DNA from: Terriglobia bacterium
GTDB taxonomy: Bacteria > Acidobacteriota > Terriglobia > Terriglobales > Acidobacteriaceae
Length of the DNA: 64,000 nucleotides
Direction: 5' to 3'
NCBI GenBank assembly: GCA_020072585.1
Contig: JAIQGL010000029.1
Coordinates: 62,001 to 126,000 of the forward strand
In this document: positions 3,308 through 34,130 of the stretch, piece by piece
How the letters are laid out: each line of letters starts with the position of its first letter
How positions within the stretch are numbered: position 1 is the first letter of the stretch
Translations under genes and position numbers: made by a program
The notes under the pieces: generated by a model
Databases searched by the model: none
Told to the model about the DNA's origin: nothing
The model's input: the letters and a program-made list of their open reading frames with translations, nothing else

Positions 3308-3346
3308 GTGTTTAAGACCGAGCTAATTTTTTACCAAGATGGAACT

Positions 3347-5299: not shown

Positions 5300-5348
5300 G
5301 CATGTATTTGCTCCATGTGTTTGCGCCAAAGCGGCGGAGGGTAGGATT

Positions 5349-6281: not shown

Positions 6282-6288
6282 ATTAAAA

Positions 6289-9679: not shown

Positions 9680-9711
9680 GCCCAAATCGTTATCATCAGT
9701 ACCGAACAGAT

Positions 9712-18123: not shown

Positions 18124-18627
18124 CTAGGATGAGGTCCTTAGCTCGCGCCCTCTCTTTAGCAGAGCTATCAATATCAGAATATGGGACACAGCCAGCAGTG
18201 GCACGTAAAACACTGAAACATACCAGTGCGCATGCAAATTGTCGACAAGAGTGGCTCCCAGCGTGAGTGCCATGTATGCAGAAATAAAATTGTAGGCGAA
18301 GCCGGTGACAGTAAATATCCAGAGAAGGAAGACAGAGTACGGCGAAGCCTTGCGGAGCGCTCCCATGCATAGGATCAGGAGAAAAAGCATGGTTGGTTCA
18401 CCGATTGCAATGACTAAGGCAAAGTTATGTGGAAAGCCAGCGCCAACAACTCCCGGAACCAGCACGGCAAGTCCTACGTGGTGAGCAATGTGGGGAGACA
18501 ATAGAACAAGCATGGCTTTACGAATAGGTTGCGCTTTCAGATATGGGCCAATAAACCAGCGGGTGAGTAAAAACAACATCAGGAAGGAAAGGCCAGCCTG
18601 AATCACATAAACTGTCACGCTGCTCAT
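18124..18627 (-). CDS. Integral membrane protein, unknown
   Basis: This 167-residue protein has about four to five predicted membrane helices: near residues 5-22, 38-60, 68-90, 95-120 and 138-158. Histidines sit near helix ends (HIAHH near 47, DNLHAHW near 131). The C-terminus is charged (KRGRELRTSS), consistent with a cytoplasmic end. I do not recognise the family. It is divergent from the electron-transfer operon and separated from it by the regulatory region at 18660-19180. Confidence 0.6.
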   Translation of the reverse strand: MSSVTVYVIQAGLSFLMLFLLTRWFIGPYLKAQPIRKAMLVLLSPHIAHHVGLAVLVPGVVGAGFPHNFALVIAIGEPTMLFLLILCMGALRKASPYSVFLLWIFTVTGFAYNFISAYMALTLGATLVDNLHAHWYVSVFYVPLLAVSHILILIALLKRGRELRTSS

Positions 18628-18697
18628 AAGCGCAAGATTATACAGCCCATCGGGTTAACCGTTACAAGGTTCCTGCGTTTCCGTCAGCTGGAATTCG

Positions 18698-18726
18698 TTG
18701 ACAAGCTGCCACTTTTTATATATAAG
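18698..18726 (+). promoter_or_regulatory. Strong sigma-70-type promoter upstream of structured element 1
   Basis: TTGACA at 18698-18703 is followed after exactly 17 bases by TATAAG at 18721-18726. Transcription would begin near 18733, about 15 bases before the first structured element, so that element would be at the very 5' end of the transcript. Confidence 0.75.
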
Positions 18727-18747
18727 TCTGCTGGTAATAATTTTTTA

Positions 18748-18835
18748 GAGCCCTGATTTTCGTTCCGATACTAAAGAGTCGGCCCGACTGAAATTTGGCT
18801 CAGAGACCGCTGGTTTCTGAGCCATTTGCTATTTA
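18748..18835 (+). ncRNA. Structured leader element, copy 1 (riboswitch-like)
   Basis: This is one of four copies in the window. GAGCC (18748-18752) can pair with GGCTC (18797-18801), enclosing an AUUU/AAAU helix and a variable apical hairpin built on CCGA/UCGG. Alternatively GGCTC is the 5' arm of a terminator-like hairpin (18797-18806 with 18814-18823) followed by a T-rich run. The two folds exclude each other. It stands just after a near-consensus promoter, in the leader of the electron-transfer operon. The ligand or family is unknown to me; the Acidobacteria-specific Acido-1 type motif is one family to compare. Confidence 0.65.
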
Positions 18836-18864
18836 GGGCCTCGGGCGACTGCGTAACTGCAACT

Positions 18865-18963
18865 ATGCGAACGTTTGTCGTCAACAATCCAAGGAAAGTT
18901 CGCCTGCTGGTCGTGAAAGTGGGGGTACTTGCACTGACTGCGGGTTTCCATAGTAGTGCTTAG
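18865..18963 (+). CDS. Possible 32-residue leader peptide or small membrane protein
   Basis: This short frame lies between structured elements 1 and 2. It codes a basic N-terminus (NNPRKVR) followed by a hydrophobic stretch (LLVVKVGVLALTAGF), like a signal or single membrane helix. There is no clear ribosome site. It starts 30 bases after element 1, a natural position for an ORF controlled by that element. It could be spurious. Confidence 0.25.
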   Translation: MRTFVVNNPRKVRLLVVKVGVLALTAGFHSSA

Positions 18964-19005
18964 TTAGACCGGCAATCTTGCTGGCTCAAAATTCTTAAGG
19001 CAGAC

Positions 19006-19090
19006 GGGCCCTGATTTCTGTCCCCCGGATCTCCGGAACAGGCAGGGAATTTGGCCCAGAGAGCATGTCTCTCTGGGCCTTTGTCTTTTT
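19006..19090 (+). ncRNA. Structured leader element, copy 2 (riboswitch-like)
   Basis: GGGCC (19006-19010) can pair with GGCCC (19053-19057), enclosing AUUUC/GGAAU and a CCGG-loop-CCGG apical hairpin inside CUGU/ACAG. The competing hairpin (19053-19063 with 19069-19079, 11 pairs) is a textbook terminator with TTTGTCTTTTT after it. The 5' strand and the terminator arm differ from copy 1 in a compensating way (GAGCC/GGCTC against GGGCC/GGCCC). It sits 92 bases before the first cytochrome gene and is likely to control the whole alternative complex III operon. Confidence 0.72.
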
Positions 19091-19181
19091 GGCGGCAAAT
19101 TAAGTTGCCTTGCACCATGAAAGGCGCTTGCCGCCGTTTTGTCTGAAACCGCGGAGTTTCATTGAAGGGGACATTGTCAAA

Positions 19182-20045
19182 GTGAAACTGGGTGTTCGTA
19201 CTTGTGCAGGAAAGACGCACCGCCTTGCCCAAATTGTGCTGCTCCTGATGGTTGCTGGCGCCGTTCAGTTCGCATGGGCTGATGACGACGATTCAAACGC
19301 CGGCGGAGCCAAGTTTTCGCCCGAAGCGGCAGCCACTTTTAATAAACGATGCACCGCATGCCACACCTATGGAAAAGGAATCAAGGTTGGCCCGGACCTG
19401 AAGGGCGTAAACGACCGGCGCAAGCGCGACTGGCTGGTGAAGTTTATCCATGGGTCTTCTCTCGTAATCAAGTCAGGCGATCCCACGGCTGTGGCCCTGT
19501 TTGCTCAATTCAAGCAACAACGGATGCCCGACTGGACTGATCTTTCAGAAAAGCAGATCAATGACATCCTGGATTTTGTGGCCATCGGCGGACCTGACAT
19601 CAAACCCGCGGACGAGCGCAACGCCGAACTGGCATTGCCGGCCGAGATCGAGCTGGGGCGCCAGTTGTTTGTCGGTGAGCGACGTTTGAAATACGGCTCT
19701 CAATCCTGCCGGTCATGCCATGGAGTCCGTGGAGCAGGTTGGGGAGGAAGCCTGGGACCTGACCTGACACAAACGTATTTCAAATTTCAGGACCGCGCGC
19801 TGACTGAATTTTTGCGGCATCCCTGTTTTCAGTGGGACACTGCTGGTGCCGGTGGTCGCTATCTCACGGCCAAAGAGTCCTTTGCGATAAAGTCGTTTTT
19901 GCGCCAGGCTGCCTTACATCAATCCGCTCACGTGGACGCTGCCGTGCCGCCCTCCCGCCCCGCAAGCGCAGAAAAGGCATCGTTAACTGCCGCTCCAGTG
20001 GCGGCCGCGCAGCAACGCAGTGACCGGAAAGGAAACGCGCCATGA
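19182..20045 (+). CDS. Two-domain (di-haem) cytochrome c, first gene of the ACIII operon
   Basis: A signal peptide (about residues 14-33) is followed by two class I cytochrome c domains. The first has CTACHTYGKGIKVGPDLKG and a distal Met in QRMPDW. The second has CRSCHGVRG. Mature protein is periplasmic. GTG 19182 is the likely start because GAAGGGG precedes it; an in-frame ATG at 19110 lies close behind the structured element without a site. The stop overlaps the next start by four bases. It probably accepts or donates electrons for the complex encoded downstream. Confidence 0.82.
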   Translation: MKLGVRTCAGKTHRLAQIVLLLMVAGAVQFAWADDDDSNAGGAKFSPEAAATFNKRCTACHTYGKGIKVGPDLKGVNDRRKRDWLVKFIHGSSLVIKSGDPTAVALFAQFKQQRMPDWTDLSEKQINDILDFVAIGGPDIKPADERNAELALPAEIELGRQLFVGERRLKYGSQSCRSCHGVRGAGWGGSLGPDLTQTYFKFQDRALTEFLRHPCFQWDTAGAGGRYLTAKESFAIKSFLRQAALHQSAHVDAAVPPSRPASAEKASLTAAPVAAAQQRSDRKGNAP

Positions 20046-20770
20046 AACCCAATTTCTTCTTTGCTGCGTGGCCCTATATCGCTCTCTTGTTGCTTCTGGT
20101 GGGCATAGGAGTGCGCTACTTTCTTGATCGCCGCCAGATGGACGCAGTAGGAAAAGAGATGTCAGAAGCCTGGGCAGTGTTTGCCGGAGGCAAGATCTGG
20201 CGTACGAGTTTAGTGCTCTTGTTCGTGGTGCATTTAACAGGATTGCTGTTTCCTCACGCAATCCTGTGGTGGAACGGCAGCACAGGCAGGCTTTACCTTT
20301 TGGAAGGAATTGGTTTCATTTTGGGAATTGCGGCGCTGGTTTGCTGGTGCTCTTTGACTTGGCGACATCTGGGGCACTCGAACCGTTCGGCGATTACCGA
20401 ATTATCCGATACTGTGTTTCTCGCTCTGCTGCTGGTCGGCATCCTCTCCGGAGTGCTGACCGCCGCGCTCTACCGCTGGGGTTCAACCTGGGGCGCGCTT
20501 ACTCTCTCTCCATATCTGATGTCACTCGTTCGCGCAAAGCCGACAGTCGGGCTTGCGAGCCAGATGCCTTTCATGGTCCGGTTGCATGTCTTTTCGTCAT
20601 TCGCCGCTCTTGCCGTCTTTCCGTTGACTCGTCTTGCGGCATTGCCGGTTTTTGCCATTGGCTGGGCATTTGGACTTGCTGGCCGTTCCCTCGCATCAGG
20701 GGCGCGTGCCCTGGAAGCATGGATGCGCAAGCACAGCCCGGCCGGGTGGCTCTGGCCGGAGGAGGACTAG
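20042..20770 (+). CDS. NarI-like (nitrate reductase gamma family) membrane protein
   Basis: This 242-residue protein has about five membrane helices: near residues 5-25, 55-77, 85-108, 130-152 and 180-210. Histidines in the second helix (VVHLTGLLFPH) and near the last one (RLHVFSS) are candidates for b-haem ligands, as in NarI. NarI-type subunits oxidise quinol and carry two b haems. Here it lies between two cytochrome c genes and overlaps the upstream one, so a quinol-linked entry of electrons is plausible. NarG, NarH and NarJ are absent. Confidence 0.7.
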   Translation: MKPNFFFAAWPYIALLLLLVGIGVRYFLDRRQMDAVGKEMSEAWAVFAGGKIWRTSLVLLFVVHLTGLLFPHAILWWNGSTGRLYLLEGIGFILGIAALVCWCSLTWRHLGHSNRSAITELSDTVFLALLLVGILSGVLTAALYRWGSTWGALTLSPYLMSLVRAKPTVGLASQMPFMVRLHVFSSFAALAVFPLTRLAALPVFAIGWAFGLAGRSLASGARALEAWMRKHSPAGWLWPEED

Positions 20771-20776
20771 AGCTCC

Positions 20777-21352
20777 ATGCGACTTCAATTGGTGTTGATG
20801 GGCGTTGTGGGCGCCGTTCTTGCAGTCGGGGCGGGCGCATATCAGCTTTCTCGTATTGGCATTCATCAAGGCTATTCGCCTGCGCAGCCGATCGCGTTCC
20901 CTCACAAGATACATGCGGGAGACAACAAAATTCCGTGCCTCTATTGCCATTACGCGGCGCGTACCAGCCGCCACGCAGGTATTCCTCCGGCAAGCGTCTG
21001 CATGAACTGCCACACGATCCTGGAGAAACAAACGGTCGAGATCGAAAAGCTGAAAGAGGCGGTACAGCAGCAGCGGCCTGTCCGCTGGGTCAAGGTGCAT
21101 AACCTGCCTGACTTTGTGTACTTCAATCACAGCCAGCATGTGGTCTCCGGTGTTGCCTGCCAGCGCTGCCACGGGCCGGTGGAGACCATGGAGCGAGTGA
21201 CCCAATTTGCGCCGCTGACCATGGGCTGGTGCCTGCAATGCCATCGTGAGCAAGCAAAACTGCCGGTGGGAGAGTTTGAGCGGGCCACTCTGAGCCTGAA
21301 GCAGAGACAAAAGCCGGCGGCAGGTTTGGATTGCGCAAGCTGTCACTACTGA
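20777..21352 (+). CDS. actA: Alternative complex III, penta-haem cytochrome c subunit ActA
   Basis: This 191-residue membrane-anchored cytochrome has five CxxCH haem sites (CLYCH, CMNCH, CQRCH, CLQCH, CASCH), the expected number for ActA. An N-terminal helix (residues 3-20) anchors it to the periplasmic face. It passes electrons from the iron-sulfur subunit ActB to downstream acceptors. The order actA-B-C-D-E-F that follows identifies it firmly. GGAGGAGG lies upstream. Confidence 0.88.
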   Translation: MRLQLVLMGVVGAVLAVGAGAYQLSRIGIHQGYSPAQPIAFPHKIHAGDNKIPCLYCHYAARTSRHAGIPPASVCMNCHTILEKQTVEIEKLKEAVQQQRPVRWVKVHNLPDFVYFNHSQHVVSGVACQRCHGPVETMERVTQFAPLTMGWCLQCHREQAKLPVGEFERATLSLKQRQKPAAGLDCASCHY

Positions 21353-21468
21353 TTGGCGCAAAATCGCCACAGCGGCGGCCGGGATCGATTGAGATTACAA
21401 CGCACGAGATTGAACGAAGACAAGAGAGCGGACGGATGAGCGGCATCTTCCCCAGTTCGGAGAATTCG

Positions 21469-24400
21469 ATGGATCATTCAGGCAGCAACGGAGCCAAAGG
21501 CCACTGCAAGAGCCCGAAGGAACAACTCGTCCAGATCGGCGGGCTGGCGGTCCCTGAATATTGGAAAAGTGTCGAGGAGCTGCAGAATGGCCCACGGTAT
21601 AAGGGAGAATTTCCCGGTGGCCTTCCCGCTTCTGATGCGCGCACGGAAACTACCCGCCGTGACTTTCTTGCTGCCATGGGATTTACGCTTGCAGCCGCGG
21701 GGCTTGCCGGGTGCCGCGCACCGGTACAAAACGCGATTCCCCTTCTGGTGGGATCGGATGACATTATTCCCGGTGTTGCCAACTGGTACGCCACAACATG
21801 CCGTGGTTGCGCATCTTCCTGTAGCTTGCTGGTGAAACAGCGCGATGGCCGCCCAATAAAGATTGAAGGAAACGCAGAGTCAACTATTTTTGGCGGAGGC
21901 ACATGCGCTACCGGCCAGGCGACTGTGCTCTCTCTTTATGACGATGAGCGCTTGCGCGGTCCGTTATGGCACGGCCAGCCTGTCACTTGGCAAGAGATCG
22001 ACCAGCATATAACGGATACCTTGCGGGCATCCGAGGGCAGCAAGCGGGAGATTGTGCTGCTTTCAGGGACCATCACCAGCCCTTCCACGCGGCGCATCGT
22101 CGCGGAATGGCAGAAGCGCTATCCGAATTTCAGGCACGTTGAATACGATGCTGTCTCGCTGAGCGCGTTGCGTGCAGCCACTGGACAATCTTTCGGACGC
22201 GCCGTGGTCCCGCACTACGCCTTTGATAAAGCCCGCGTCATTGTCGGCCTGGAAGCAGACTTCCTGGGAACGTGGCTCTCGCCGGTGGAATTCGCTCGCC
22301 AATACGCCGCAAACCGCAAGCCGGAAGGTGTCCCGGCGCTTCATGTTCAATTTGAATCTGGAATGTCCGTTACGGGCAGTAACGCGGATGTTCGCGTGGC
22401 TGTAGCTCCCTCTCAATTAGGACTGATCGCAGTGGCGTTGCTGCGCCGCATCGCCCACAAAGCTGGCACACCACCGGTGGCCGGAACGCAGGACCCCATT
22501 GAGGCCAAAAAGCTGGATGCCGTGGCCGACGAGCTCTGGAAACATCGCGGTGAGTCGCTGGTGGTAAGCGGGTCGAACGACATATCAGTCCAGATGGTGG
22601 TGAACGCACTGAATGCTGCATTGGGGAATATCGGGAAGACTATAGATATTCTGCAGCCATCTCTGCAGCGGAGCGGTGACGATGCTGCCATGGCCGAGCT
22701 GGTAGGAAAGTTGCAGCGTGGTGAGGTTCATACGCTGATGATGCACGGAGTGAATCCTGCGTATGACTATCCGGAGTCTGAGCAATTTCTTGCCGGGCTG
22801 GAAAAGGTGGCGCTCTCGGTTTCGTTCTCTGACCGCCGTGATGAGACCAGCTCTCATGCCCACGCCGTGTGCCCGGATCACCATTTTCTAGAAGCCTGGG
22901 GCGATGCCGAGCCTGTAGAGTCGCATTTCAGTCTTGCCCAGCCTCTGATTGCGCCATTGTTTGAAACACGCGCGGCGCAGGAATCCCTGCTCAAGTGGGT
23001 GGGCCATGATGAGACGGATTACTACAACTATCTGCGCGAATTCTGGCGCACTGACATTTTTCCGCGCCAGAAAGAGCTGCCTAACTTCGATGCATTCTGG
23101 GAGCGTTCGCTCCAGGACGGGGTTGTTGCTGTGTCTCCCAAGTCCACCGGGGCCATACCGAAGCCCGTCAATCTGAAGCCCCAGGGTGATTGGAAAGCCG
23201 CGGTGGACAAAATTTTCAGCGAGGCGGCAGAAACCCACAGCGGCACGGCAGAAAATCATTTTGAAGTCCACTGCTATGAGACCGTAGCTTTGCGGGATGG
23301 CCGCCACGCCAACAATCCCTGGCTTCAGGAACTCCCGGACCCGATCACCAAGGTTACCTGGGGAAACTATGCGGCGATTGCTCCCAGCACCGCGAAAAAA
23401 CTCGACTTGAATGATGGCGATGTAATCAGACTCACAGCGGGCAAACGGCAACTGGAACTGCCTGCATTCATCCAGCCCGGACAAGACACCCGCACGATCG
23501 CGGTTGCTCTTGGTTACGGACGGAGCCAGGTAGGTCGCGCCGGAAAGAACGTGGGCGTGAACGCATTTCCTTTTACCTCCATCGAGCGCGGGCAGCGCCG
23601 TTATTTTGCCGGCAACGCAACCTTTGAAAAAACCGGACGCACGGAGAAACTCGGCAGCACGCAGACGCATTTTTCCATGGAAGGCCGGCCGATTGTGCTG
23701 GAAACATCACTGGAAGAGCTGCACAAAGGCGCTGAGACTGAAGAAGAAACATCACCTACGCTCTGGGCGGAAAGGCTCCATGGAGAGCACGCCTGGGGTA
23801 TGGCCATTGACATGAATTCGTGCACCGGTTGCTCGGCATGCGTGGTGGCGTGCCAGGCGGAAAACAATGTTCCGGTGGTGGGCAAAGACCAGATCGAGCG
23901 CATCCGCATCATGCACTGGATACGGATTGATCGTTACTACAGCGGGCCGGAAGAAGAGCCCGTCAGCGTGCATCAGCCCATGATGTGCCAGCACTGCCAG
24001 AACGCGCCGTGCGAAACCGTTTGCCCCGTGCTTGCAACCACAACCAGTTCTGAAGGGCTCAACCAGCAGGTCTACAACCGTTGTATTGGCACACGCTACT
24101 GCGCTAACAACTGCCCATATAAAGTGCGGCGGTTCAACTGGTACAACTACACGGAAAACCCGCAATTCGATTTCAACATGGAGAGCCCAATCGGGCGGCT
24201 GGTGTTGAATCCTGACGTTGCGGTACGCTCCCGCGGCGTGATGGAAAAATGCAGCCTCTGCGTGCAAAGAATTCAGCTGGCCAAGAACACCGCGTTGCAG
24301 GGGCGGCGTGATCTGGCTGATGGTGAAATCCAAACCGCGTGCCAGCAGTCGTGTCCCACGCAGGCCATTGTTTTTGGCGACCTCAAAGATCCGAACAGCC

Positions 24401-24513
24401 GCGTTTCACAAATGCAGCGCAATCAGCGCCGTTACAAGGTGCTGGATGATCTGGGAACGCGCCCGAACGTCAGCTATCTCAAGAAAGTCCGTAATCCCCT
24501 GGAGACCGCGTAA
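21469..24513 (+). CDS. actB: Alternative complex III, molybdopterin-like/iron-sulfur subunit ActB
   Basis: This is a fusion of a molybdopterin oxidoreductase-like domain and a C-terminal four-cluster ferredoxin domain. An internal Tat signal (TRRDFLAAMGFTLAAAGLAG) directs export. Ferredoxin motifs appear as CTGCSACVVACQAENN, CQHCQNAPCETVCPV, CIGTRYCANNCPYKVR and CSLCVQRI. In ActB the large domain lacks molybdenum, and the ferredoxin part carries three 4Fe-4S and one 3Fe-4S clusters. ATG 21469 follows CGGAGA; ATG 21436 and a far upstream TTG are alternatives, the latter overlapping actA. Confidence 0.9.
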   Translation: MDHSGSNGAKGHCKSPKEQLVQIGGLAVPEYWKSVEELQNGPRYKGEFPGGLPASDARTETTRRDFLAAMGFTLAAAGLAGCRAPVQNAIPLLVGSDDIIPGVANWYATTCRGCASSCSLLVKQRDGRPIKIEGNAESTIFGGGTCATGQATVLSLYDDERLRGPLWHGQPVTWQEIDQHITDTLRASEGSKREIVLLSGTITSPSTRRIVAEWQKRYPNFRHVEYDAVSLSALRAATGQSFGRAVVPHYAFDKARVIVGLEADFLGTWLSPVEFARQYAANRKPEGVPALHVQFESGMSVTGSNADVRVAVAPSQLGLIAVALLRRIAHKAGTPPVAGTQDPIEAKKLDAVADELWKHRGESLVVSGSNDISVQMVVNALNAALGNIGKTIDILQPSLQRSGDDAAMAELVGKLQRGEVHTLMMHGVNPAYDYPESEQFLAGLEKVALSVSFSDRRDETSSHAHAVCPDHHFLEAWGDAEPVESHFSLAQPLIAPLFETRAAQESLLKWVGHDETDYYNYLREFWRTDIFPRQKELPNFDAFWERSLQDGVVAVSPKSTGAIPKPVNLKPQGDWKAAVDKIFSEAAETHSGTAENHFEVHCYETVALRDGRHANNPWLQELPDPITKVTWGNYAAIAPSTAKKLDLNDGDVIRLTAGKRQLELPAFIQPGQDTRTIAVALGYGRSQVGRAGKNVGVNAFPFTSIERGQRRYFAGNATFEKTGRTEKLGSTQTHFSMEGRPIVLETSLEELHKGAETEEETSPTLWAERLHGEHAWGMAIDMNSCTGCSACVVACQAENNVPVVGKDQIERIRIMHWIRIDRYYSGPEEEPVSVHQPMMCQHCQNAPCETVCPVLATTTSSEGLNQQVYNRCIGTRYCANNCPYKVRRFNWYNYTENPQFDFNMESPIGRLVLNPDVAVRSRGVMEKCSLCVQRIQLAKNTALQGRRDLADGEIQTACQQSCPTQAIVFGDLKDPNSRVSQMQRNQRRYKVLDDLGTRPNVSYLKKVRNPLETA

Positions 24514-24522
24514 GGAGTTTCA

Positions 24523-25980
24523 ATGAGCACGACGACTTCGATCAGTGTGAACGGAAAGCCGCCAGCCGAGGCAGCCCGCATCCAGACACCGGTGCTTGCA
24601 CCGCCGGTGTGGGTGGATGAAAACCCTTCACTGCGCGATATTACTGACGACATCGCGCGGCCGCTGGAGGCGCGTCCAGGCAAGGGCTGGTGGATTTGTT
24701 TCGGGATCGCATTTGCCGCGCTGCTCAATCTGGTGGGAATGGTTTCCTGGCTCTTCGCAAAGGGGATTGGCATCTGGGGCCTGAACAACAGTGTTGGCTG
24801 GGCCTTTGATATCACCAACTTCGTATTCTGGGTCGGTATTGGACACGCGGGAACACTGATTTCGGCCATCCTGCTTCTGTTTCGCCAGCAATGGCGCACC
24901 TCCATCAACCGCTCGGCTGAGGCGATGACGATATTCGCCGTCATGTGCGCCGGCTTGTTTCCAGCAATCCACATGGGCCGGCCATGGGACGCGTTTTTCA
25001 TCTTCCCGTATTTTCCCAATCAGCGCGGCCCACTGTGGGTGAATTTTCGTTCGCCGCTGGTATGGGACGTTTTTGCCATCAGTACATACCTGACCATCTC
25101 GCTCGTCTTCTGGTACCTGGGAATGATTCCAGATCTGGCAACTCTGCGCGACCGCGCTGTGGGTGGAATCAAGAAATTTGTTTTTGGCCTGCTGAGTCTG
25201 GGATGGAACGGATCACACCGTACCTGGGCGCGCTATGAGATTGTCAGCCTGGTATTGGCCGGATTGGCGACCCCACTGGTCCTCTCCGTGCACTCCATTG
25301 TGAGCATGGATTTTGCCACGTCATTGCTTCCCGGCTGGCATACGACCATCTTCCCGCCTTACTTTGTTGCCGGCGCTATCTATTCCGGATTCGGCATGGT
25401 CTTGACGCTGCTGATCATTACGCGCTCCACCATGAATTTGCAGCGGTATATCACTCTTCGCCACCTCGACAAAATGGCCAAGGTGACAATGCTGACCGGG
25501 ATGATCGTGAGCTATGCGTACCTTACGGAGTTTTTTGCGGCCTGGTACGGCGGCAACCTGTATGAGAAATATCACTTCATCAATCGCGCTACCGGTCCCT
25601 ACGCCTGGTGCTTTTATCTGATGGTCCTCTGCAACGTTATTACTCCGCAGATGCTCTGGGTAAAAAAAGCCCGGACGAGCGTGGCCTTCTTATTCATTGT
25701 CTCCATCATGGTGAACATTGGCATGTGGTTTGAAAGGTTCGTGATTATCGTGGTTTCACTGCATCGCGCCTTTCTTCCTTCCGGATGGGGAATGTTTTAT
25801 CCCACCATCTTCGATATTGGGATACTGGTGGGGAGCTTCGGGCTTTTCTTCACGTGTTTCCTGTTGTTTATTCGCGTGCTGCCAATGATCGCCATGTGGG
25901 AGATCAAGGGCGTGGTCGGACATGGCGCCCACAAGATGGCCCTGAGCAGTGATGAAGAGGAGGTCACAGTCAATGTCTAA
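24523..25980 (+). CDS. actC: Alternative complex III, NrfD/PsrC-like quinol subunit ActC
   Basis: This 485-residue integral membrane protein of the NrfD/PsrC type has about ten helices. It forms the quinol-binding site of alternative complex III together with ActF. Membrane stretches are clear from residue 65 ([19 protein letters not shown]) to the C-terminal region. Conserved segments such as [15 protein letters not shown] are visible. The last ten codons overlap actD, so the two are coupled. Confidence 0.88.
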
Positions 25981-26497
25981 ATCTTTTCTGGTGGCGACAT
26001 TTTCTGACGCTGACACGCTGCTTCATGCCGTCAGGGCTGTAGTGCGCGAGGATTTCAAAGTTTATGACGTATATGCGCCCTATCCGATCCACGGGCTGGA
26101 TGCAGCCATGGGAATCCGCCGGTCGCGTCTGCCATGGGTAACGTTTATCGTGGGCTGCTGTGCTTTGACATTTGCCCTGTGCTTCCAGCTCTACACCTCA
26201 GTGCTTGACTGGCCGCTGAACGTAGGTGGCAAGCCGGACAATTCGACTCTCGCCTTTGTGCCAATTTGTTTCGAACTTACCGTGCTCCTTTCCGGCCTGG
26301 CAACGGTTGCCGCTCTCTTTCTGCGTGCCCGGTTGTATCCGGGGAAGAAGGAGCTGCTATTTGCCGAGGGCGTTACGGACGACACATTTGCGCTTGTTTT
26401 GCGCCGGCGGGAATCGCCGTTTGACAGTAACCGCGCCTGGAAAGTGTTGCAGGAAAATGGCGCCGATCGAATCAGGGAAAGGGAGACGGAGTCATGA
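25973..26497 (+). CDS. actD: Alternative complex III, subunit ActD (DUF3341)
   Basis: This small membrane protein of the DUF3341 type opens with a short soluble domain ([29 protein letters not shown]). Two membrane helices follow (about residues 58-78 and 97-118). Its role in the complex is structural and poorly known. The start at 25973 is supported by GAGGAGG and overlaps the end of actC. The stop overlaps actE by four bases. Confidence 0.87.
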
Positions 26498-27084
26498 TCC
26501 GGTTTATCCATGCGCTTTTCGCGTTGGCATTCATAGCCCTGCTCTCAGGCTGCGGCGCAACCTCTGAGAAGCGGGCCTATGAATACATGCCGGACATGTC
26601 ACGTAGTCCGGCCTACAAGGCCTATGCTCCGAACTCTGTAACGAGGGATGGGCTCACGCTCCAGCGACCGGTCTCTGGAACCATTCCGCGAGGTTTCCAT
26701 ACATTTCACTATGGTCCCGGGGAAGACGAAGCTGCCCGTGCCGGACGCGAGCTGGAGAATCCTTATCGTGCTTCTCCGCGGACATTGGAAGAGGGAAAAG
26801 GGCTCTTTCAGACCTACTGCCTGGTCTGTCATGGAGAACAGGGAAAAGGCGATGGTCCAATCTCGGCAAAAATTCCTACGCCTCCCTCCTATGTCTCTGA
26901 GCGGTTAATGCAGTTTCCTCCAGGCCGCGTTTTTCATGTGATCACATTGGGGACAGGAAAGATGCCATCGTATGCTGCGCAACTGAGCGCTGATGAGAGA
27001 TGGAAAATCGTTACCTATGTGCATGCCGTGCTGCAAGGGCTGGGCGATCGCGGCCAGGTGGCACAGAACGGAGGCAGCCAATGA
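26494..27084 (+). CDS. actE: Alternative complex III, mono-haem cytochrome c lipoprotein ActE
   Basis: A lipoprotein signal with lipobox LLSGC (Cys at residue 20) is followed by a class I cytochrome c domain with CLVCHGEQGKGDGP and a distal Met in KMPSYAAQL. ActE anchors to the periplasmic face and is thought to deliver electrons from the complex to cytochrome oxidase or to a soluble carrier. The 5' end overlaps actD and the 3' end overlaps actF. Confidence 0.88.
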   Translation: MIRFIHALFALAFIALLSGCGATSEKRAYEYMPDMSRSPAYKAYAPNSVTRDGLTLQRPVSGTIPRGFHTFHYGPGEDEAARAGRELENPYRASPRTLEEGKGLFQTYCLVCHGEQGKGDGPISAKIPTPPSYVSERLMQFPPGRVFHVITLGTGKMPSYAAQLSADERWKIVTYVHAVLQGLGDRGQVAQNGGSQ

Positions 27085-28301
27085 CAACACCTCCATCATT
27101 CCAAATCTCCGCCCGTGCCCGCGGCGGTGCATTTCTTCTTCTGGCTGTGGGGCTCACTGCCGCGATTTATGGCGTGATCACAAATCCTGAGCGGACCTGG
27201 CCCAACCTTTTGATCGATGGGTTTTACGTAACGTCACTTGGGGTCTCGGCGATATTTTTTCTTGCCGCACAACGTGCGACGGGAGCGCGCTGGTCGGCAA
27301 GCCTGCGCAGAATCCCGGAAGCCTTCATGCCGGTCTTGCCCGTGGCATTTTTCCTGATCATGGTGCTTTTCTTCGGCCGCCATTTTCTCTACGTCTGGAG
27401 CCGGCCGGGAGCGATGGCGGGTGGACCGGTGTTTGCCGGTCGAGCACAATATCTACAGCCCGCCTGGGTGTACGCGCGCATGATCATCGCCTTTGCTGCG
27501 TGGTTCCTGTTCGCATGGCTGTTCCGTAAGACTTCATTGCAGCAGGACCGTGAACCCGGCCAGAGTTTGGTGCTTCACCAGAAGCTGACACGGTATGCCG
27601 TGATGTTCGTCCCGGTCTTTGCTTTTACGATTACCGTGGGCGCGTTTGACTGGCTGATCTCAGCCGACCCGCGCTGGTTCAGCACCATGTATGCCGTCTA
27701 TGTGTTTGCCGGGACCTTTGTGCAGGGCATCGCGGCCGTGACACTAGCCGTGGTGCTTTTGCGAGAACGCGGCCCTATGCGTGACTCAGTCAGTGATCAC
27801 CAGCTCCATGATCTGGGCAAACTGCTCTTCGCCTTTAGTACATTCTGGGCCTACATCTGGACCTGCCAATACCTTTTGATCTGGTATGGGAACATTCCGG
27901 AAGAAGTTACGCACTACGTTTCCCGCACGAATGGGCCGTGGCTGTACCTCTTCGCGCTCAACCTGATCTCTAACTGGGTCGTGCCCTTTGTTGTGCTTCT
28001 CTCGGTCCGCGCCAAATGCACAACCAAGGTCCTCAAGTTCATTACCGTGCTTATGCTGTGCGGCCGCTGGCTTGATCTGTATCTACTGGTGACGCCCTCT
28101 GTATGGACGGCCCCAAAGTTTGGACTTCTCGAAATCGCCATCGCCGCAGGATATCTCTCCATTTTGTTTCTTGTTTTCGTGCGCAGCGCTAGCAGCGCAC
28201 CGCTGGTGCCGGCAAATGATCCAATCATGGCTTATGAACGGTCCCATCCGCCCCTGCATCACCATGCAATAGACCCCAAGCTTCGTGGAGTAGCGCAATG
28301 A
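27081..28301 (+). CDS. actF: Alternative complex III, second NrfD-like subunit ActF
   Basis: This integral membrane protein of about 406 residues has roughly ten helices and resembles ActC. It starts at ATG 27081, overlapping the actE stop by four bases. Helices include FLLLAVGLTAAIYGV near residue 20 and repeat through the protein. ActF contributes to the proton-path part of the complex. Its stop overlaps the following multihaem gene. Confidence 0.87.
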   Translation: MTTPPSFQISARARGGAFLLLAVGLTAAIYGVITNPERTWPNLLIDGFYVTSLGVSAIFFLAAQRATGARWSASLRRIPEAFMPVLPVAFFLIMVLFFGRHFLYVWSRPGAMAGGPVFAGRAQYLQPAWVYARMIIAFAAWFLFAWLFRKTSLQQDREPGQSLVLHQKLTRYAVMFVPVFAFTITVGAFDWLISADPRWFSTMYAVYVFAGTFVQGIAAVTLAVVLLRERGPMRDSVSDHQLHDLGKLLFAFSTFWAYIWTCQYLLIWYGNIPEEVTHYVSRTNGPWLYLFALNLISNWVVPFVVLLSVRAKCTTKVLKFITVLMLCGRWLDLYLLVTPSVWTAPKFGLLEIAIAAGYLSILFLVFVRSASSAPLVPANDPIMAYERSHPPLHHHAIDPKLRGVAQ

Positions 28302-31135
28302 TCAATGGGAACGGCAGATCTCTTAAACTCGCGGCGCTGTTGACCACCACCCTGGCAACATGCGCACTGGTCTACTACCAGCCGGACCAGAGCAAGCTGA
28401 ACGATATTCCCAACCGTCTTCCCGAAGCGGCGCCTTACGTTGTGGCAGAGGCCCAGGCATTTCCGCCTCCCTACCATGACCACTGGGAACAGGAGGACAG
28501 CCCGGGGCAATGTCAGACTTGCCATCAGAAGATTTTTGATGAATGGAACGGTTCCATGATGTCGAATTCCTGGCGTGATCCCGCCTGGCGCGCGGCCTTT
28601 CTGGCGCTGGCGCGCGCGACCTCAGCCAATGGAGAATGTGACACGCCTGAACCGCCTGACGGCACCGCAAAAGCGGCGCACAATCCCTTTGCCAACAAAG
28701 GTGAATGTTCTTCAACCTTTGATATCGGCACCGATAAATACACAGTTTCCCGGCCGGGATCTCTGTTGGATTTCTTCTGCTCGCGCTGCCACATGCCCAC
28801 AGATTACGTGGACAACATTCCACTCAGGAATGTGAAGCTCGACCCGAATACCAATCTTGAGAGCGCACCGGGCGATCCGAACTTCAATCCAACATCGGAT
28901 AATGGAACCGGCATCGCTTTTGCCGCGGCGCTGGCACAATATCGCAACACGGATTCAGGAAAGAGCGGGATCATCTGCGCGGTGTGCCACACCAACGCGG
29001 AGACACGCGATACTCCATTCCATAATTATTCCCATAGCGCCAGCGCTTACGTGCCTGCGCAGGGAACCAAGCCTCGCAATGAATTGCTGGCTGCGGCGCA
29101 GCAGGATATCTTCAACGTGCCTGATTCCAGCAAACAGAACCTGGGGTATAGCATCGGCGCCGGCTCCTACCGGTTGTCACCGCATGCCATTGGATCCCCG
29201 GAAAGGTTTGGTCCATTGGCCGCGAACCCGACGGGTACAGATACTTACACCAGCCAGATCTTTGGGCAGGAAATCCCTTATCAGAAGATTGATCCGGCAA
29301 AGCACAAGGGATATCACCAGGCAATGTTCCTGCGGGCGGAGATGTGCGCAGCGTGCCATGACGTAACCAATGCGTTGCCCATCAAGAACCCGATTGGCAA
29401 ATGGGTGGGTGGCTTCCCCATTGAACGCACCTACACGGAGTGGGCCAACAGCGTGTACGCAGATCGCCCGGGCAATAAGAATTTTGATTCGCATTTCAAG
29501 CGCGACTGCCAGAGCTGCCATATGCAGCAGGATTACGGCCAGCCCGGCACGGCGCAGACTCTATATAAAGACGGGAAACCATTGCCGCCTCAGGTGGACC
29601 GCGTCGCCAACGAGGGGGGATCGCCTCATCCATTCTTTACCCATCATTTTGTTGGTGGCAATGCTTACGTCACAGGCTTGATTGGCAAGGATGTTGACCA
29701 GAGCGGAAATGTCGCACCATATCCAGAGCTCTCTGCGTTCAGCTTTTCTTCTGCTGATGAAAAGAGTCCCTATTCACGCGGTTTCTGGACACACACAGAG
29801 CGCAAGGGCGCCTATTCGCAGCAAGCGCGGCTTGCCTGGGACCGTTTGCGCCACGTGCTCAGCATGGATGTGCACGGCCCGGCTACGGCCCCTGCCAATA
29901 CTTCAGTTCCTCTTTCCATCACCATTGCCAACACAGGCAGCGGTCACGATTTCCCTACGGGTTTCCCTGAAGGCCGCACGGCATGGCTGTCACTGCATGC
30001 CTATGACCTGGCCACAGGCAAAGAGCTTCAAATTCAGGACAACGTATGGAAGCGCTCTTCCGTGGGGGTGGGAAACCTCACAACAGAGGAGATGGTCGAT
30101 CCCAATTTCCCTGGCTGCAATTGGAAAATTCCAGCCGGTTCGGCTGATCCCTATTCCGTACAGTTCAAGGCCGTGGCGTCTCTTGGCGATGGCTGTCCGA
30201 CCCTGGACCTGCCCTACGCTACACCATTGAATCTTGTTACGAACAAGGCGGGTCTACCTATCGACAAAGACGGGCGAGTGATTGACCGCAACAATTCAAC
30301 GGCATTGCCGCAATTCAAAGATAACGATGGAAATGGAGATCTCTTTGATGACTCCTTCCTTCGCGATACCCGTTTCAAGCCGAGAGGGCGCCCCGAATAC
30401 GAGAAAAAGATCGATCGTTATTCAGTAGTCATCCCGCAGGGAACACAGGGCCCCGTGGCTGTTACCGCTGCGGTCTATTACCAGTCGATTGAAGCCGTCG
30501 TGGCGCTGCATTTCCTGGGCAATATGGCGGACACAAACAACAACTTTGTGCTGGAGCCCTGCGTCTTGGGCGGTCTTTGCGACGGTCGTAAGCCCACAAC
30601 CGAGCCTGCTGTAGTGGAAGGAGCGCCACCGGTGCCCATGGTCGTGCGTAATTGGGTGATCTCAGTGGATGGCGGACCTGCTGACAAAACCGTACCCCGC
30701 GTGGCTGTTTATCCGGCGTCTGGCACGCAAAAAGCCTATCAAGATACCGTCGTGAAGGTGTTTTTCTCCAAGCCGGTGCGCGGCGTGGATAGCCGAAGCT
30801 TTACGTTAACCGATTCGACCGGTAAGCCAGTTCCAGCATGGGTTGACCAGGTTGGAGACGCCACCTGGGGGCTGTTCCCGGATCCTGTGCTTCTGAAGCC
30901 CGGTGAAAGCTATAGTGCACGCCTCAAAGCCGGAGTCTGCGACCTATCAGGTCAGTGTACAAAGCAGGACACAACGTGGAGATTCACGGTGTGCAAAGAA
31001 TCAAGCCAGGGAACGGGCGATACCAGTATTCCCATAGGGTTCACCGTGCCTGAGCTAGGCAGCGCTAGTGCTGCTCCACGCGCCACAGCAGTGCACGAAA
31101 AATCGCATACGAAGGTGCGACTGGCGAGCAAGTAA
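28298..31135 (+). CDS. Large multihaem cytochrome c with C-terminal Ig-like domain
   Basis: The N-terminus has a signal or anchor (residues 8-30). Five CxxCH haem sites are visible: CQTCH, CSRCH, CAVCH, CAACH and CQSCH, the last followed by MQQDYG. Spacing is wide and resembles periplasmic multihaem electron-transfer proteins. The C-terminal ~150 residues form a bacterial Ig-like domain (FSKPVRGVDSRSFTLTDSTG, then a strand ending WRFTV). It is translationally coupled to actF, so it belongs to the same operon and may be the acceptor for the complex or a surface conduit. I do not recognise a specific enzyme such as nitrite reductase. Confidence 0.78.
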   Translation: MINGNGRSLKLAALLTTTLATCALVYYQPDQSKLNDIPNRLPEAAPYVVAEAQAFPPPYHDHWEQEDSPGQCQTCHQKIFDEWNGSMMSNSWRDPAWRAAFLALARATSANGECDTPEPPDGTAKAAHNPFANKGECSSTFDIGTDKYTVSRPGSLLDFFCSRCHMPTDYVDNIPLRNVKLDPNTNLESAPGDPNFNPTSDNGTGIAFAAALAQYRNTDSGKSGIICAVCHTNAETRDTPFHNYSHSASAYVPAQGTKPRNELLAAAQQDIFNVPDSSKQNLGYSIGAGSYRLSPHAIGSPERFGPLAANPTGTDTYTSQIFGQEIPYQKIDPAKHKGYHQAMFLRAEMCAACHDVTNALPIKNPIGKWVGGFPIERTYTEWANSVYADRPGNKNFDSHFKRDCQSCHMQQDYGQPGTAQTLYKDGKPLPPQVDRVANEGGSPHPFFTHHFVGGNAYVTGLIGKDVDQSGNVAPYPELSAFSFSSADEKSPYSRGFWTHTERKGAYSQQARLAWDRLRHVLSMDVHGPATAPANTSVPLSITIANTGSGHDFPTGFPEGRTAWLSLHAYDLATGKELQIQDNVWKRSSVGVGNLTTEEMVDPNFPGCNWKIPAGSADPYSVQFKAVASLGDGCPTLDLPYATPLNLVTNKAGLPIDKDGRVIDRNNSTALPQFKDNDGNGDLFDDSFLRDTRFKPRGRPEYEKKIDRYSVVIPQGTQGPVAVTAAVYYQSIEAVVALHFLGNMADTNNNFVLEPCVLGGLCDGRKPTTEPAVVEGAPPVPMVVRNWVISVDGGPADKTVPRVAVYPASGTQKAYQDTVVKVFFSKPVRGVDSRSFTLTDSTGKPVPAWVDQVGDATWGLFPDPVLLKPGESYSARLKAGVCDLSGQCTKQDTTWRFTVCKESSQGTGDTSIPIGFTVPELGSASAAPRATAVHEKSHTKVRLASK

Positions 31136-31145
31136 TTACGCTGAG

Positions 31146-31180
31146 CGGTCCCGGAGGTTTTCTCCGGGGACCGATTTCTT
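31146..31180 (+). terminator. Terminator of the electron-transfer operon
   Basis: Arms 31146-31156 and 31162-31173 form a GC-rich stem with one bulge, followed by a T-rich run (ATTTCTTT). It closes the transcript that begins before the two-haem cytochrome gene. Confidence 0.75.
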
Positions 31181-31197
31181 TCAGCAAATCAGGGTAG

Positions 31198-31539
31198 TTA
31201 TGCCACGTTGCCCAATGAGGCGCCACTTGCGCGTATGGGCTCCCTGCTGATTGCCAGGGTGCGTTGCAGCTGCTCTTTTGCAAAAGTATTGTGCCCTAGC
31301 GCCACCAGCCCGCCGACAAGAAAGCCGAACCCAGCAAAAAAGAGCGGCGCAATGACCGCAAACACCATTCCATCGCTCGCGGCGGCAATTGTGCCCTTGA
31401 ACTGGACTGGCGCTGCGCCCCAGCAGAGCATACAGAATGACAAAACTGGAAAAAACAGCACGGCAGTGCCGGCATGGAGAGCGGCTGACACACTGGCGGC
31501 AAGCAAAACGTTAATCGGTTGTGGTCTGGTCATTGGCAT
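31198..31539 (-). CDS. Small membrane protein, unknown, downstream of element 3
   Basis: From ATG 31539, with a GAGGAAAAG site, the protein is 113 residues long. It has about three hydrophobic helices (near residues 8-28, 30-45 and 55-80); one contains CMLCW. The C-terminal 35 residues are polar. It is the third gene of a small minus-strand series, and its start lies 95 bases after the third structured element. The function is unknown. Confidence 0.55.
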   Translation of the reverse strand: MPMTRPQPINVLLAASVSAALHAGTAVLFFPVLSFCMLCWGAAPVQFKGTIAAASDGMVFAVIAPLFFAGFGFLVGGLVALGHNTFAKEQLQRTLAISREPIRASGASLGNVA

Positions 31540-31633
31540 ATTCTTTTCCTCATCTACAAAACTTGTATTTTTTGTGGAGCATGGCGTACTCGAGAAAACG
31601 CCTGGCTTAACTCCACGAATGCGCTTTTTGTTG

Positions 31634-31728
31634 CCAAAACAAAAATGGCCCAGAGATATTTCCATCTCTGGGCCAAATCTCCGTTCAGCCGGGTCTGGTA
31701 TTTTGCCCGGCAGCGAAAATCGGGGCCC
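31634..31728 (-). ncRNA. Structured leader element, copy 3 (riboswitch-like)
   Basis: Read on the minus strand, GGGCC (31728-31724) can pair with the GGCCC of the downstream arm. It encloses AUUUUCG/CGGAGAU (seven pairs) and a GCCGGG/CCCGGC apical hairpin. The competing terminator hairpin occupies 31646-31675 (12 pairs, six-base loop), followed by TTTTTGTTTTGG. The copy lies between the stop of the 126-codon-type gene and the start of the small membrane protein, so it could act as an intercistronic switch. Confidence 0.68.
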
Positions 31729-31775
31729 TCGCCAAACTGGATCCGGCCTTTTTGCCGGAAAACCGAGTCAGGATT

Positions 31776-32078
31776 TTACGTGCTACGGTAAGTTTTTTTT
31801 GCCACGGCCTCCACGCAGGTAATTTCACCACGGCGGAACTGGATCGTAATTGAGCCGGGGCACTTGCGTGTCTTAATGAAATCAGAGAGCGCGACAAAAA
31901 GTTCTTTGGGAATGTTCAGCCTGGCTCCGCTGGGGGAAGTGGCAAGGTACTGCAGATCCGGGGTTGGTTCCGGGGACTGGGGGAGCTTATCGGTCCGCAA
32001 TGCTGTCTCTTGTGCGGAATCGCCGTCCTTGGTTAGTTGAGCAACACCGGTTGCATAATAGACTCGTGTATCTGACAT
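31776..32078 (-). CDS. Small DUF2292/YezD-like protein, longer paralogue
   Basis: From ATG 32078 it is 100 residues. The C-terminal half (GARLNIPKELFVALSDFIK, then GSITIQFRRGEI and EAVAKKTY) matches the neighbouring 68-residue protein block by block, so the two are paralogues. The pattern recalls small YezD/DUF2292-type proteins, some of which are linked to sulfur metabolism in other bacteria; this is tentative. The N-terminal half is unique. Confidence 0.55.
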   Translation of the reverse strand: MSDTRVYYATGVAQLTKDGDSAQETALRTDKLPQSPEPTPDLQYLATSPSGARLNIPKELFVALSDFIKTRKCPGSITIQFRRGEITCVEAVAKKTYRST

Positions 32079-32146
32079 ACAAAACCTGCGTTCTTTCTTG
32101 TTCGGTCGTTCTCGGATCTGGTGGTAAACCTCAGGGATAATTGGGG

Positions 32147-32332
32147 TCAACAACAATCATCAATCCCCATGCAGGTTGATATGTCAACATCCTTGGGGTG
32201 CGCACGAGTCAGAATGAGGCGGAACGCTGAGGCCCGTCTATCGGCTTGTTGCAGCTGATGTGGCCCAGTCAACAAACCGCGGAATATGCGCTGACGTGCT
32301 CGGTGGTGAGCGGCAAGGGGGTTCCGTCTCAT
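32147..32332 (-). CDS. Possible small basic protein after element 4
   Basis: This 61-residue frame has an AAGGAG site 10 bases before its ATG. It is basic and carries two terminal Cys after an Asp-Asp. It begins 88 bases after structured element 4, a spacing close to that seen for elements 2 and 3 and their genes. The composition is not typical for a folded protein, so it may be spurious. Confidence 0.35.
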   Translation of the reverse strand: MRRNPLAAHHRARQRIFRGLLTGPHQLQQADRRASAFRLILTRAHPKDVDISTCMGIDDCC

Positions 32333-32418
32333 TTTTAGTCAACTCCTTGGGCACTAAGACCCTGTGGCAGAGTTAGTGTTGCGCGGGCTACCAGCGTTTC
32401 AGTTTCCCTGAAAATTTG

Positions 32419-32507
32419 CGCAATAAACAAGGCTCAGAGAGCTTACGCCTCTCTGAGCCAAATTTCGCGTCTGCTCCGGAAGTTTCCGGGAACTGAAATC
32501 GGGGCTC
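32419..32507 (-). ncRNA. Structured leader element, copy 4 (riboswitch-like)
   Basis: On the minus strand GAGCC (32507-32503) can pair with GGCTC of the downstream arm. It encloses AUUUC/GAAAU and a CCGGAA/UUCCGG apical hairpin. The terminator-like alternative uses 32431-32441 with 32449-32459 (11 pairs) and then TTGTTTATT. The outer pairs agree with copy 1 and differ from copies 2 and 3 at the same covarying position. Confidence 0.68.
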
Positions 32508-32577
32508 GCCCGCTAGTAACGTTATTCAACTTCTTACTGACAGACAATCAAAAACTACATTTGTAAGAAATTCTTTA

Positions 32578-32784
32578 TTACTTATAGGTCTTCTTGATTA
32601 CTGCTTCCAGTCCTGCGATCCCGCCATTCCTGAATTGGATCACCACGGAGCCGGTCTGCTTACTGCCCTGGAGAAAGTCCAGCAGAAGCCCAAATAACTC
32701 CTTTGGAATTTCAATGCGGGTTCCGTCGGGAGCAACAACCAGATGTTGCTGCGGGTTGTGCTGAAATGAAACGACTGTTGGCAT
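32578..32784 (-). CDS. Small DUF2292/YezD-like protein, short paralogue
   Basis: This 68-residue protein starts at ATG 32784 with a strong GGAGGGG site. It shares the motif GTRIEIPKELFGLLLDFL, then GSVVIQFRNGGIAGLEAV and KKTY, with the gene downstream (31776-32078). The two probably arose by duplication together with the structured elements. The function is not known; the fold is probably a small alpha/beta domain. Confidence 0.65.
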   Translation of the reverse strand: MPTVVSFQHNPQQHLVVAPDGTRIEIPKELFGLLLDFLQGSKQTGSVVIQFRNGGIAGLEAVIKKTYK

Positions 32785-33256
32785 TTTCTTCCACCCCTCC
32801 GTGATTTCAGGGTACACGCTTTTTTAACAAAGAGGCGTTTCTCTGGAACCTAACTGATCAAACGCTGGCGCTGTGGCCAGTTTACCTGCAAACTAGATCT
32901 TCTCAGATTTCCGCCCTAGGATCATTTTTCGGGGCGAATTATCCCACAGAGTTCATTAAAAATGAGTATTCTTTAACAAATTCCTACTTTCGGAAAATAG
33001 GACAGAAAATTGGCTTCGATCAATGAATCTAATCGCTTAAGGGGCTGACCTGGAGGATAGCTCGCAACCGGAGAAGAGTTGGGGAGAAGATATTTTTTCC
33101 GTATTTTGACATTTTAGGCGGCTGACGGGGTTAAGCAGAGTTGGCTCAGATTTTGGACATAACTGCCCGTGCATCTTGATGAAAAATTCAGCAAACTTTC
33201 GCTAACAGCTTCGGCTGCAAGAAGTTAGAATTTTTGCTGCGCGTTTAAAACGTGGA
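32785..33256. other. Divergent regulatory region, no gene
   Basis: The stretch separates the minus-strand small genes from the plus-strand ECF sigma gene. It holds the promoters of both by position. The palindrome CTGGCGCTGTGGCCAG is near 32864-32879. I see no reading frame and no fifth copy of the structured element. Confidence 0.5.
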
Positions 33257-33880: not shown

Positions 33881-34130
33881 GCGGCCTAGCGTTCTCATTA
33901 CTTTAGGGATGGCAAAAGGTTTCACGTTCGGTTTTACGTCTTAGGGTTTGAAGGCAGTTAAAAGTGAATAGACCAGGAAACAAAGAGAAGGTAATTCGAG
34001 GCGGGTCTGCAAGAGAGGTAGAGGTGGCGGTCAGCCACGGCTTCAGGGCGCGTCCGCTCACTTGCCCAGGCCTTTGCAGGTGCATGCCAAAGGCCAGTCC
34101 CGCACGAATTCTTCTCCCGGAAGGTTGTTC

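Follow-up and report, generated by a model that had tools for sequence, protein, structure and literature searches.

A lineage-restricted leader RNA with riboswitch architecture, probably a cis-acting transcription attenuator, at an alternative complex III locus of Acidobacteriaceae

A 64,000-nucleotide (nt) stretch of a Terriglobia bacterium genome (family Acidobacteriaceae, assembly GCA_020072585.1, contig JAIQGL010000029.1, positions 62,001 to 126,000, hereafter called the window) carries four copies of one structured RNA, two of them ahead of an alternative complex III operon and two among small genes that face its end. The question raised by this locus is whether the copies are regulatory leaders, independent small RNAs or ordinary terminators. 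The copies have two alternative folds that are both backed by covariation, they keep their positions ahead of the same genes, promoter-like sites precede some of them, and they are better conserved than most of their flanks. We therefore consider the RNA a probable cis-acting transcription attenuator built like a riboswitch, restricted to one lineage and belonging to no recognised class.

An initial annotation, made from the letters of the window, had reported the four copies, and all of them were recovered at those places (Table 1), with the common core GRGCCCYGATTTY ... RATTTGGCYCAGAGA followed by a terminator hairpin of 11–13 pairs and a T-rich tail. The gapped core pattern GCCCYGATTT...ATTTGGCYCAGAGA matched four times in the 6.9 Mb genome and not at all in a reversed control. 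A covariance model built from the four copies (R1) returned the same four as the only full copies in this genome, while six further matches at E 1 were either opposite-strand readings of the copies' terminators (four) or had E values of 0.7–0.8 (two). When the copies were compared with shuffled sequences, 0, 0, 1 and 0 of 200 shuffles folded at least as well as copies 1 to 4, respectively. Covariance-model searches of Acidobacteriota added 14 full copies in four relatives (G001, G004, G005, and G061), which together with the window genome (G000) gives 18 copies in five genomes.

All 18 copies retain the 5′ part of ~54 nt, which forms an extended stem-loop of ~50–59 nt closed by P1 (5 base pairs, bp) and continued by a 2 × 1 internal loop (CY/U), P2 (~6 bp), a small loop, P3 (3 bp), a bulge, and the variable hairpin P4. 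P1 pairs alignment columns 1–5 with 55–59, and the latter also open the 5′ arm of the terminator. The first bases (mostly GRGCC) can pair with this terminator-opening strand in 18 of 18 copies, through five pairs in 16 and four in 2, so the 5′ partner strand is conserved throughout. The P1 alternatives GAGCC/GGCUC and GGGCC/GGCCC, noted earlier in the window, were borne out and the relatives added AGGCC/GGCCU; pair 2–58 is A-U in 10 copies, G-C in 8, and broken in none. Among 17 copies, 96.3% of the P1 + P2 cells are paired and both sides have changed at 5 of 11 pairs, a level reached by 2 of 500 shuffles, whereas no slid register exceeds 61.5% (~61% after a slide of one column); for the terminator the figures are 100% paired cells, 5 of 10 pairs and 0 of 500 shuffles, with shuffle controls that ignore relatedness in both cases. 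The second copy before complex III covaries in three strands at once (5′ strand/terminator 5′ arm/terminator 3′ arm), which read GGGCC/GGCCC/GGGCC in G000, AGGCC/GGCCT/AGGCC in G004, and GAGCC/GGCTC/GAGCC in G005. The terminator 3′ arm differs from the 5′ strand in 7 of 18 copies, five of which (GAGCC/GGCTC/GGGCC) have a G-U pair in the terminator and a complete P1, and the other two (copies G4_mem113 and G61) four P1 pairs. P3 had to be recounted by hand, since the MAFFT columns were out of register, and 53 of 57 cells are paired in the 18 copies plus an extra G005 site described below, a count based on hand-chosen triplets that leans towards structure. The mutual exclusion of closed stem and terminator proposed in the initial annotation is hence supported by covariation in both folds, the arrangement of aptamer and expression platform that is generally looked for in riboswitches.

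Folding in silico agrees with this picture. The best fold of the stem alone includes P1 in 18 of 18 copies, and in nascent transcripts that reach no further than 24 nt beyond the first base of the shared strand, a central P1 pair has a probability of at least 0.96, apart from one value of 0.93. In the full copy this probability drops to 0–0.01, again in all 18, and forcing P1 there costs 3.0–8.6 kcal/mol. Under a strict cut (at least 0.9 in the nascent transcript, 0.05 in the full copy) 17 of 18 copies pass, vs. 191 of 3600 shuffled leaders in which the terminator was kept. When 25 nt of the real leader were added to 8 of the 18 copies, P1 was dominant (at least 0.8 throughout) in six.

The positions of the copies point in the same direction. 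Between a promoter-like site and the c-type cytochrome gene that begins the operon, copies 1 and 2 follow each other in series. On the minus strand, copies 3 and 4 flank yezD2, with mem113 downstream of copy 3, and face the end of the complex III operon. Pfam matches and locus layout confirmed that the downstream genes are an alternative complex III operon and small proteins without known family; among the latter are small basic proteins, here called yezD-like (a working name). The earlier statement that each copy precedes a gene start stood in so far as the copies do precede genes, though copies 3 and 4 lie inside the small-gene cluster and not at its 5′ end, 47 and 70 nt past the stop codons of the same-strand genes ahead of them. 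The spacing of ~88–95 nt given for three copies applies to copies 2 and 3 only (93 nt before GTG 19182 and 98 nt before ATG 31539), not to copy 4 (~340 nt before ATG 32078) or to copy 1, which precedes copy 2 and is ~350 nt away from the cytochrome gene.

The pattern TTGACAN{13,18}TATAWA has a single match in the window (0.01 expected), at copy 1, a site that a generic sigma-70 scan misses. Across the 18 copies, a TTGACA/TATA site occurs within 100 nt upstream of six first copies and of none of the 12 others, for which no TTGACA was found in these 100 nt and other promoter types are possible; the TATA element ends 3–25 nt ahead of the copy, depending on the register. Five of these six first copies have a second copy in series behind them, and in three genomes the complex III operon has two switches in series behind one promoter-like site.

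This layout is repeated in G004 and in G005 (Acidobacteriaceae isolate clean1646), where the gap between yezD1 and yezD2 has only an apparently decayed copy, while G061 has one copy directly ahead of its cytochrome gene. In G001 (Candidatus Angelobacter sp. Gp1-AA117), yezD2 has copies on both sides, as it does in the window, a tandem pair is placed ahead of a multicopper oxidase gene, and a second pair points off the end of contig C138; the latter had been taken for a complex III leader, a reading that was withdrawn as the cytochrome contig (C86) shows no overlap and has no copy in the ~390 nt upstream of its cytochrome gene. A mem113 homologue is retained downstream of a copy at three loci of the set (L040, L041, and L042). 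Apart from the C138 pair, the genes downstream of the copies are those of complex III (four genomes), yezD2, mem113 and the multicopper oxidase, so that a conserved RNA domain recurs in the leaders of related genes in several species, as is usual for riboswitches, over a narrow range. The link of the RNA with complex III holds in four of the five genomes.

Table 1 Features of the RNA locus in the window (window positions; the start codons of cytC, yezD2 and mem113 are inferred, and longer frames exist in the mechanical list of open reading frames)
Feature	Position	Strand	Remarks
Promoter-like site TTGACA-17-TATAAG (TATATA in other registers)	18698..18726	+	~20 nt upstream of copy 1
Copy 1	18748..18832	+	P1-P2-P3-P4 stem overlapping terminator; first of tandem pair upstream of complex III operon
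Copy 2	19006..19088	+	Second of tandem pair; 93 nt before cytC; no TTGACA in 100 nt upstream
c-type cytochrome (cytC), 2 CxxCH, first operon gene	19182..20045	+	Pfam Cytochrom_C, CxxCH count
NarI-like membrane subunit	20042..20770	+	Pfam Nitrate_red_gam 3e-31
Alternative complex III genes, taken as ActA-ActF	20777..28301	+	Pfam ActD 4.3e-55; NrfD, Fer4/molybdopterin, cytochrome c7, CBB3 domains; names ActA, B, C, E by domains and order, ActF by order alone, without Pfam match
Multihaem cytochrome, 5 CxxCH, last operon gene	28298..31135	+	Pfam, CxxCH count
mem113 (working name), small hydrophobic protein without known family	31198..31539	-	Downstream of copy 3
Copy 3	31638..31728	-	Between yezD2 and mem113
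yezD2, 100-aa paralogue of yezD1	31776..32078	-	
Copy 4	32422..32507	-	Between yezD1 and yezD2
yezD1, 68-aa orphan basic protein	32578..32784	-	No family in Pfam or NCBIfam; a single Pfam match at chance level (E 0.26)

In order to delimit the distribution of the RNA, larger groups were sampled evenly, and the large searches scored only 11–15 first-look candidates in each genome, a design that weak copies may escape. With R1, 11 of 61 genomes matched at E 0.1. Strong copies were present, in addition to those of the window genome, in G004 (4), G005 (3), and G001 (6); among the five remaining congeners, two gave no match and three a single weak one each (E 0.01–0.05) in which the core could not be seen by eye. 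A second model (R2, built from 17 copies) matched 16 of 398 family genomes at E 0.001, namely the four RNA-bearing congeners, G061 with a single copy of 74.5 bits, and 11 genomes at 28–33 bits. These 11 were not accepted as copies, the alignments viewed at 8 of the 11 loci showing mainly terminators, and the weak R1 and R2 matches as a whole (~19–33 bits, same strand sense; those of R1 judged from their sequences) look like terminators or unrelated sequence. An aptamer-only model (R3) matched 5 of 396 family genomes at E 0.001, the same five; as R2 and R3 were both built from these copies, only new sites count as evidence. Searches at the level of the order (4 of 298 genomes matched) and class (2 of 299) returned only genomes already known. 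A GTDB-wide scan with the core pattern, which misses copies departing from it and may omit the genome of the window, gave six stretches, of which four lie in two metagenome-assembled genomes (MAGs) equal to G001 and G005; the other two, from Tahibacter caeni and a Chloroflexi MAG, were rejected by eye. Viral contigs gave 0 matches. Four of the five RNA-bearing genomes belong to one genus and G061 to another genus of the family.

Between genomes, same-site copies have mean identities of 79–84%, vs. 24–64% for their 85-nt flanks (18 pairs from 14 of the 18 copies, leaving out the C138 pair of G001). The tree of the copies has little resolution (none of its 15 inner branches starred); the two G001 pairs have first copies that group with support of 91/87, which is compatible with a copied cassette. 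All five RNA-bearing genomes have in common a distinctive alternative complex III operon and an orphan family of small basic proteins. The cytochrome had 7 matches in 61 relatives at E 1e-20, the 4 below E 1e-90 being the four RNA carriers, and it is also encoded by G061, which lies outside that sample. Of 250 family genomes, the yezD-like family (E 1e-4) was found in the five with the RNA and in no other, and extra paralogues are present in G000 and G004 (L146, L147, and L153). Since the RNA, the complex III genes and the yezD genes are mostly clustered, this co-occurrence shows a co-inherited module and does not single out the partner gene of the RNA.

Large multicopper oxidases (E 1e-50) were present in 9 of 61 relatives, which are the nine members of the genus, with up to eight matches per genome, and the window itself opens in such a gene (2-838; G000:C6:60628-62835), followed by that of a SCO1/SenC-cytochrome c protein (956-1963). 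An aptamer-only search of 37 genomes gave 28 matches at E 0.5, of which 17 were known copies; alignments were viewed for six of the 11 others, where L099 was rejected as apparent coding sequence, L100, L079, L080, and L081 were not accepted, and L097 was retained for its position. The extra G005 aptamer site is located ~170 nt upstream of a multicopper oxidase gene of the same family as the G001 oxidase with the full tandem leader, and it folds in the same arrangement with P3 as CUU/GAG instead of GUU/GAC; its position makes it a likely relative that has no terminator. The 48 oxidase matches came from 9 of 61 genomes; the aptamer search covered 27 loci and left out 21 matched places, and most of the loci had no copy. 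It was accepted at L111/L135 (one G001 contig) and at L118 (the G005 site), and matches of 13.9 and 12.6 bits in L117 and L132 were not accepted.

Several observations weigh against the attenuator reading. A similar switch arises in 5.3% of the shuffled leaders counted above (191/3600), and copy G4_mem113, at 0.81, falls below the 0.9 cut. With 25 nt of leader, P1 falls from 0.84 to 0.18 before the terminator in G061, and in copy 3 it weakens from 0.83–0.97 to 0.59. In the relatedness-blind controls, further pair types are no more frequent than in shuffles (275/500 for P1 + P2, 244/500 for the terminator), and same-site copies are barely more alike than different-site copies (76%). G061 has a terminator without aptamer after yezD2 (L154:11084-11111), where other genomes have copy 3, and this may be a relic or a precursor. 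The G001 cytochrome gene has no copy in the ~390 nt upstream to the contig end, which is why complex III is linked to the RNA in only four of five genomes. The extra G005 site has no terminator, and its E value of 0.017 is no better than those of three unaccepted matches (0.007, 0.010, and 0.011). Copies 3 and 4, finally, may partly act as terminators for the genes that precede them.

No match to a known family was found that would change the assignment. Rfam 15 gave 0 matches in the window at gathering score; its only matches in L040-L043 and L068 were a tRNA and two Acido-Lenti-1 RNAs, all of them away from the copies. Acido-Lenti-1 (RF01687) is also an acidobacterial RNA and occurs on two copy-bearing G001 contigs (L042:8189-8234 and L043:9864-9919, both on the minus strand), at other positions and without matching the copies. 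Scans of 18600-19250, 31600-32600, and 30000-34000 at permissive settings yielded nothing above threshold, and the weaker matches are all taken as chance: the copy 1 terminator with a microRNA model (E 0.00075, the lowest; 28.2 vs. 80 bits), copy 2 with anti-hemB (19.4 vs. 49.5 bits), copy 3 with SdsR_RyeB (21.1 vs. 38 bits), and a fluoride riboswitch match inside the multihaem gene (17.8 vs. 34 bits). Literature searches combining Acidobacteria and riboswitch with alternative complex III, or with cytochrome plus terminator, found no paper, and in broader searches no title among the matches listed describes this RNA. The initial annotation of an acidobacterial cis-regulatory attenuator outside the recognised classes is thus upheld by the exclusive folds, the covariation, the kept positions, the promoter-like sites, and the Rfam result.

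How would such an attenuator work? During transcription, P1 would form first and close the extended stem-loop, after which the 3′ arm of the finished terminator would displace P1 and transcription would stop. A signal stabilising P1, probably at the conserved CCYGAU/AUUUGG junction, would hold the terminator open and let transcription proceed. The default state would thus be OFF and the signal would turn the switch ON, a polarity that we consider probable. Where tandem copies follow one promoter, both switches would have to be passed. The effector is somewhat more likely to be a small molecule or an ion than a protein.

This anatomy matches ON-type terminator switches such as the Na+ riboswitch (DUF1646 motif), in which, according to PMC9337991, one strand belongs both to the aptamer stem and to an intrinsic terminator and binding switches expression on; in one example it is arranged in series with another switch, and each of the two has a terminator of its own. 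The copies resemble it in the strand shared by stem and terminator and in the switches in series. They differ in having one linear stem where the Na+ riboswitch has two extended substructures, and their tandem joins two copies of one RNA instead of two classes (Na+ and c-di-AMP). The copies also have no Rfam match at gathering score, in a library in which the presence of the Na+ model was not confirmed by name. Tentatively, the copies may represent a new riboswitch class, confined to one acidobacterial lineage, that senses a respiratory cue (e.g., a metal, haem, a quinone or another redox-linked compound) and gates the whole complex III operon through two serial ON switches, with the cassette of promoter and tandem leader also placed ahead of a multicopper oxidase; we doubt this extension somewhat more than we trust it.

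An attenuator of the same build could instead respond to a protein, with a small RNA-binding protein, perhaps yezD-like, binding the stem and keeping the terminator open, so that the RNA would be a protein target. In RAT/LicT antiterminators protein binding keeps the terminator open, and the LicT/SacY-type RAT RNA is a short imperfect hairpin that overlaps the terminator 5′ arm. The latter overlap is the likeness to our copies, while their sequence appears to differ from the RAT consensus, with no model compared and no search made for LicT-type proteins. The yezD-like proteins are small with an invariant K-K-x-Y near the C-terminus, they occur in exactly the five RNA-bearing genomes of 250, and two window copies flank yezD2, all of which would suit a binding protein. 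However, complex III, yezD and the RNA share one locus in four of the five genomes, so that co-occurrence cannot separate the hypotheses; the AlphaFold model of yezD1 is weak (mean predicted local distance difference test score, pLDDT, of 65), and the extra paralogues in G000 and G004 have no RNA within the 1.5 kb examined. We regard protein control as unlikely, and the yezD-like proteins as candidate hairpin binders by co-occurrence only.

Tandem sibling small RNAs are known, and each copy could be an independent, trans-acting RNA of ~90 nt with its own terminator. A strong terminator behind each window copy and the promoter-like site at first copies would fit, and a terminated leader could also act in trans, but 12 of 18 copies lack the TTGACA discussed above, and the 5′ strand covaries with the terminator 5′ arm, which a small RNA would not need. 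The copies also hold their positions ahead of the same genes in several genomes, and the generic promoter scan is silent on the strand of copies 3 and 4, a weak argument as it also missed the site at copy 1. Taken together, independent small RNAs appear improbable. Plain terminators or dispersed repeats of the repetitive extragenic palindromic (REP) type with a fortuitous 5′ complement are very improbable, since although GGCNCRGAGA-type terminators recur at the weak model matches in the family (alignments at 8/11 loci) and the G061 site after yezD2 is a terminator alone, the copies are better conserved than their flanks, number only four in the window genome, lie before or between same-strand genes in the window, and retain the ~54-nt 5′ part in 18/18. 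A cis-acting attenuator with riboswitch architecture therefore remains our preferred reading.

Other features of the window include a sigma-70 region 2 protein (33257-33880) beside a TPR-CHAT protein (34062-37505), which adjoin the RNA locus and also end the G005 locus, and an arginine cluster (3308-11064) with an AstA-like protein, argininosuccinate lyase and synthase, and the succinylarginine dihydrolase AstB.

An orphan attenuator with covariation in each of two exclusive folds is a good place to look for a new RNA sensor. A leader RNA at this locus would offer a handle on the choice of respiratory route in soil acidobacteria, and two serial copies of one switch behind one promoter would be a natural case of steepened control.

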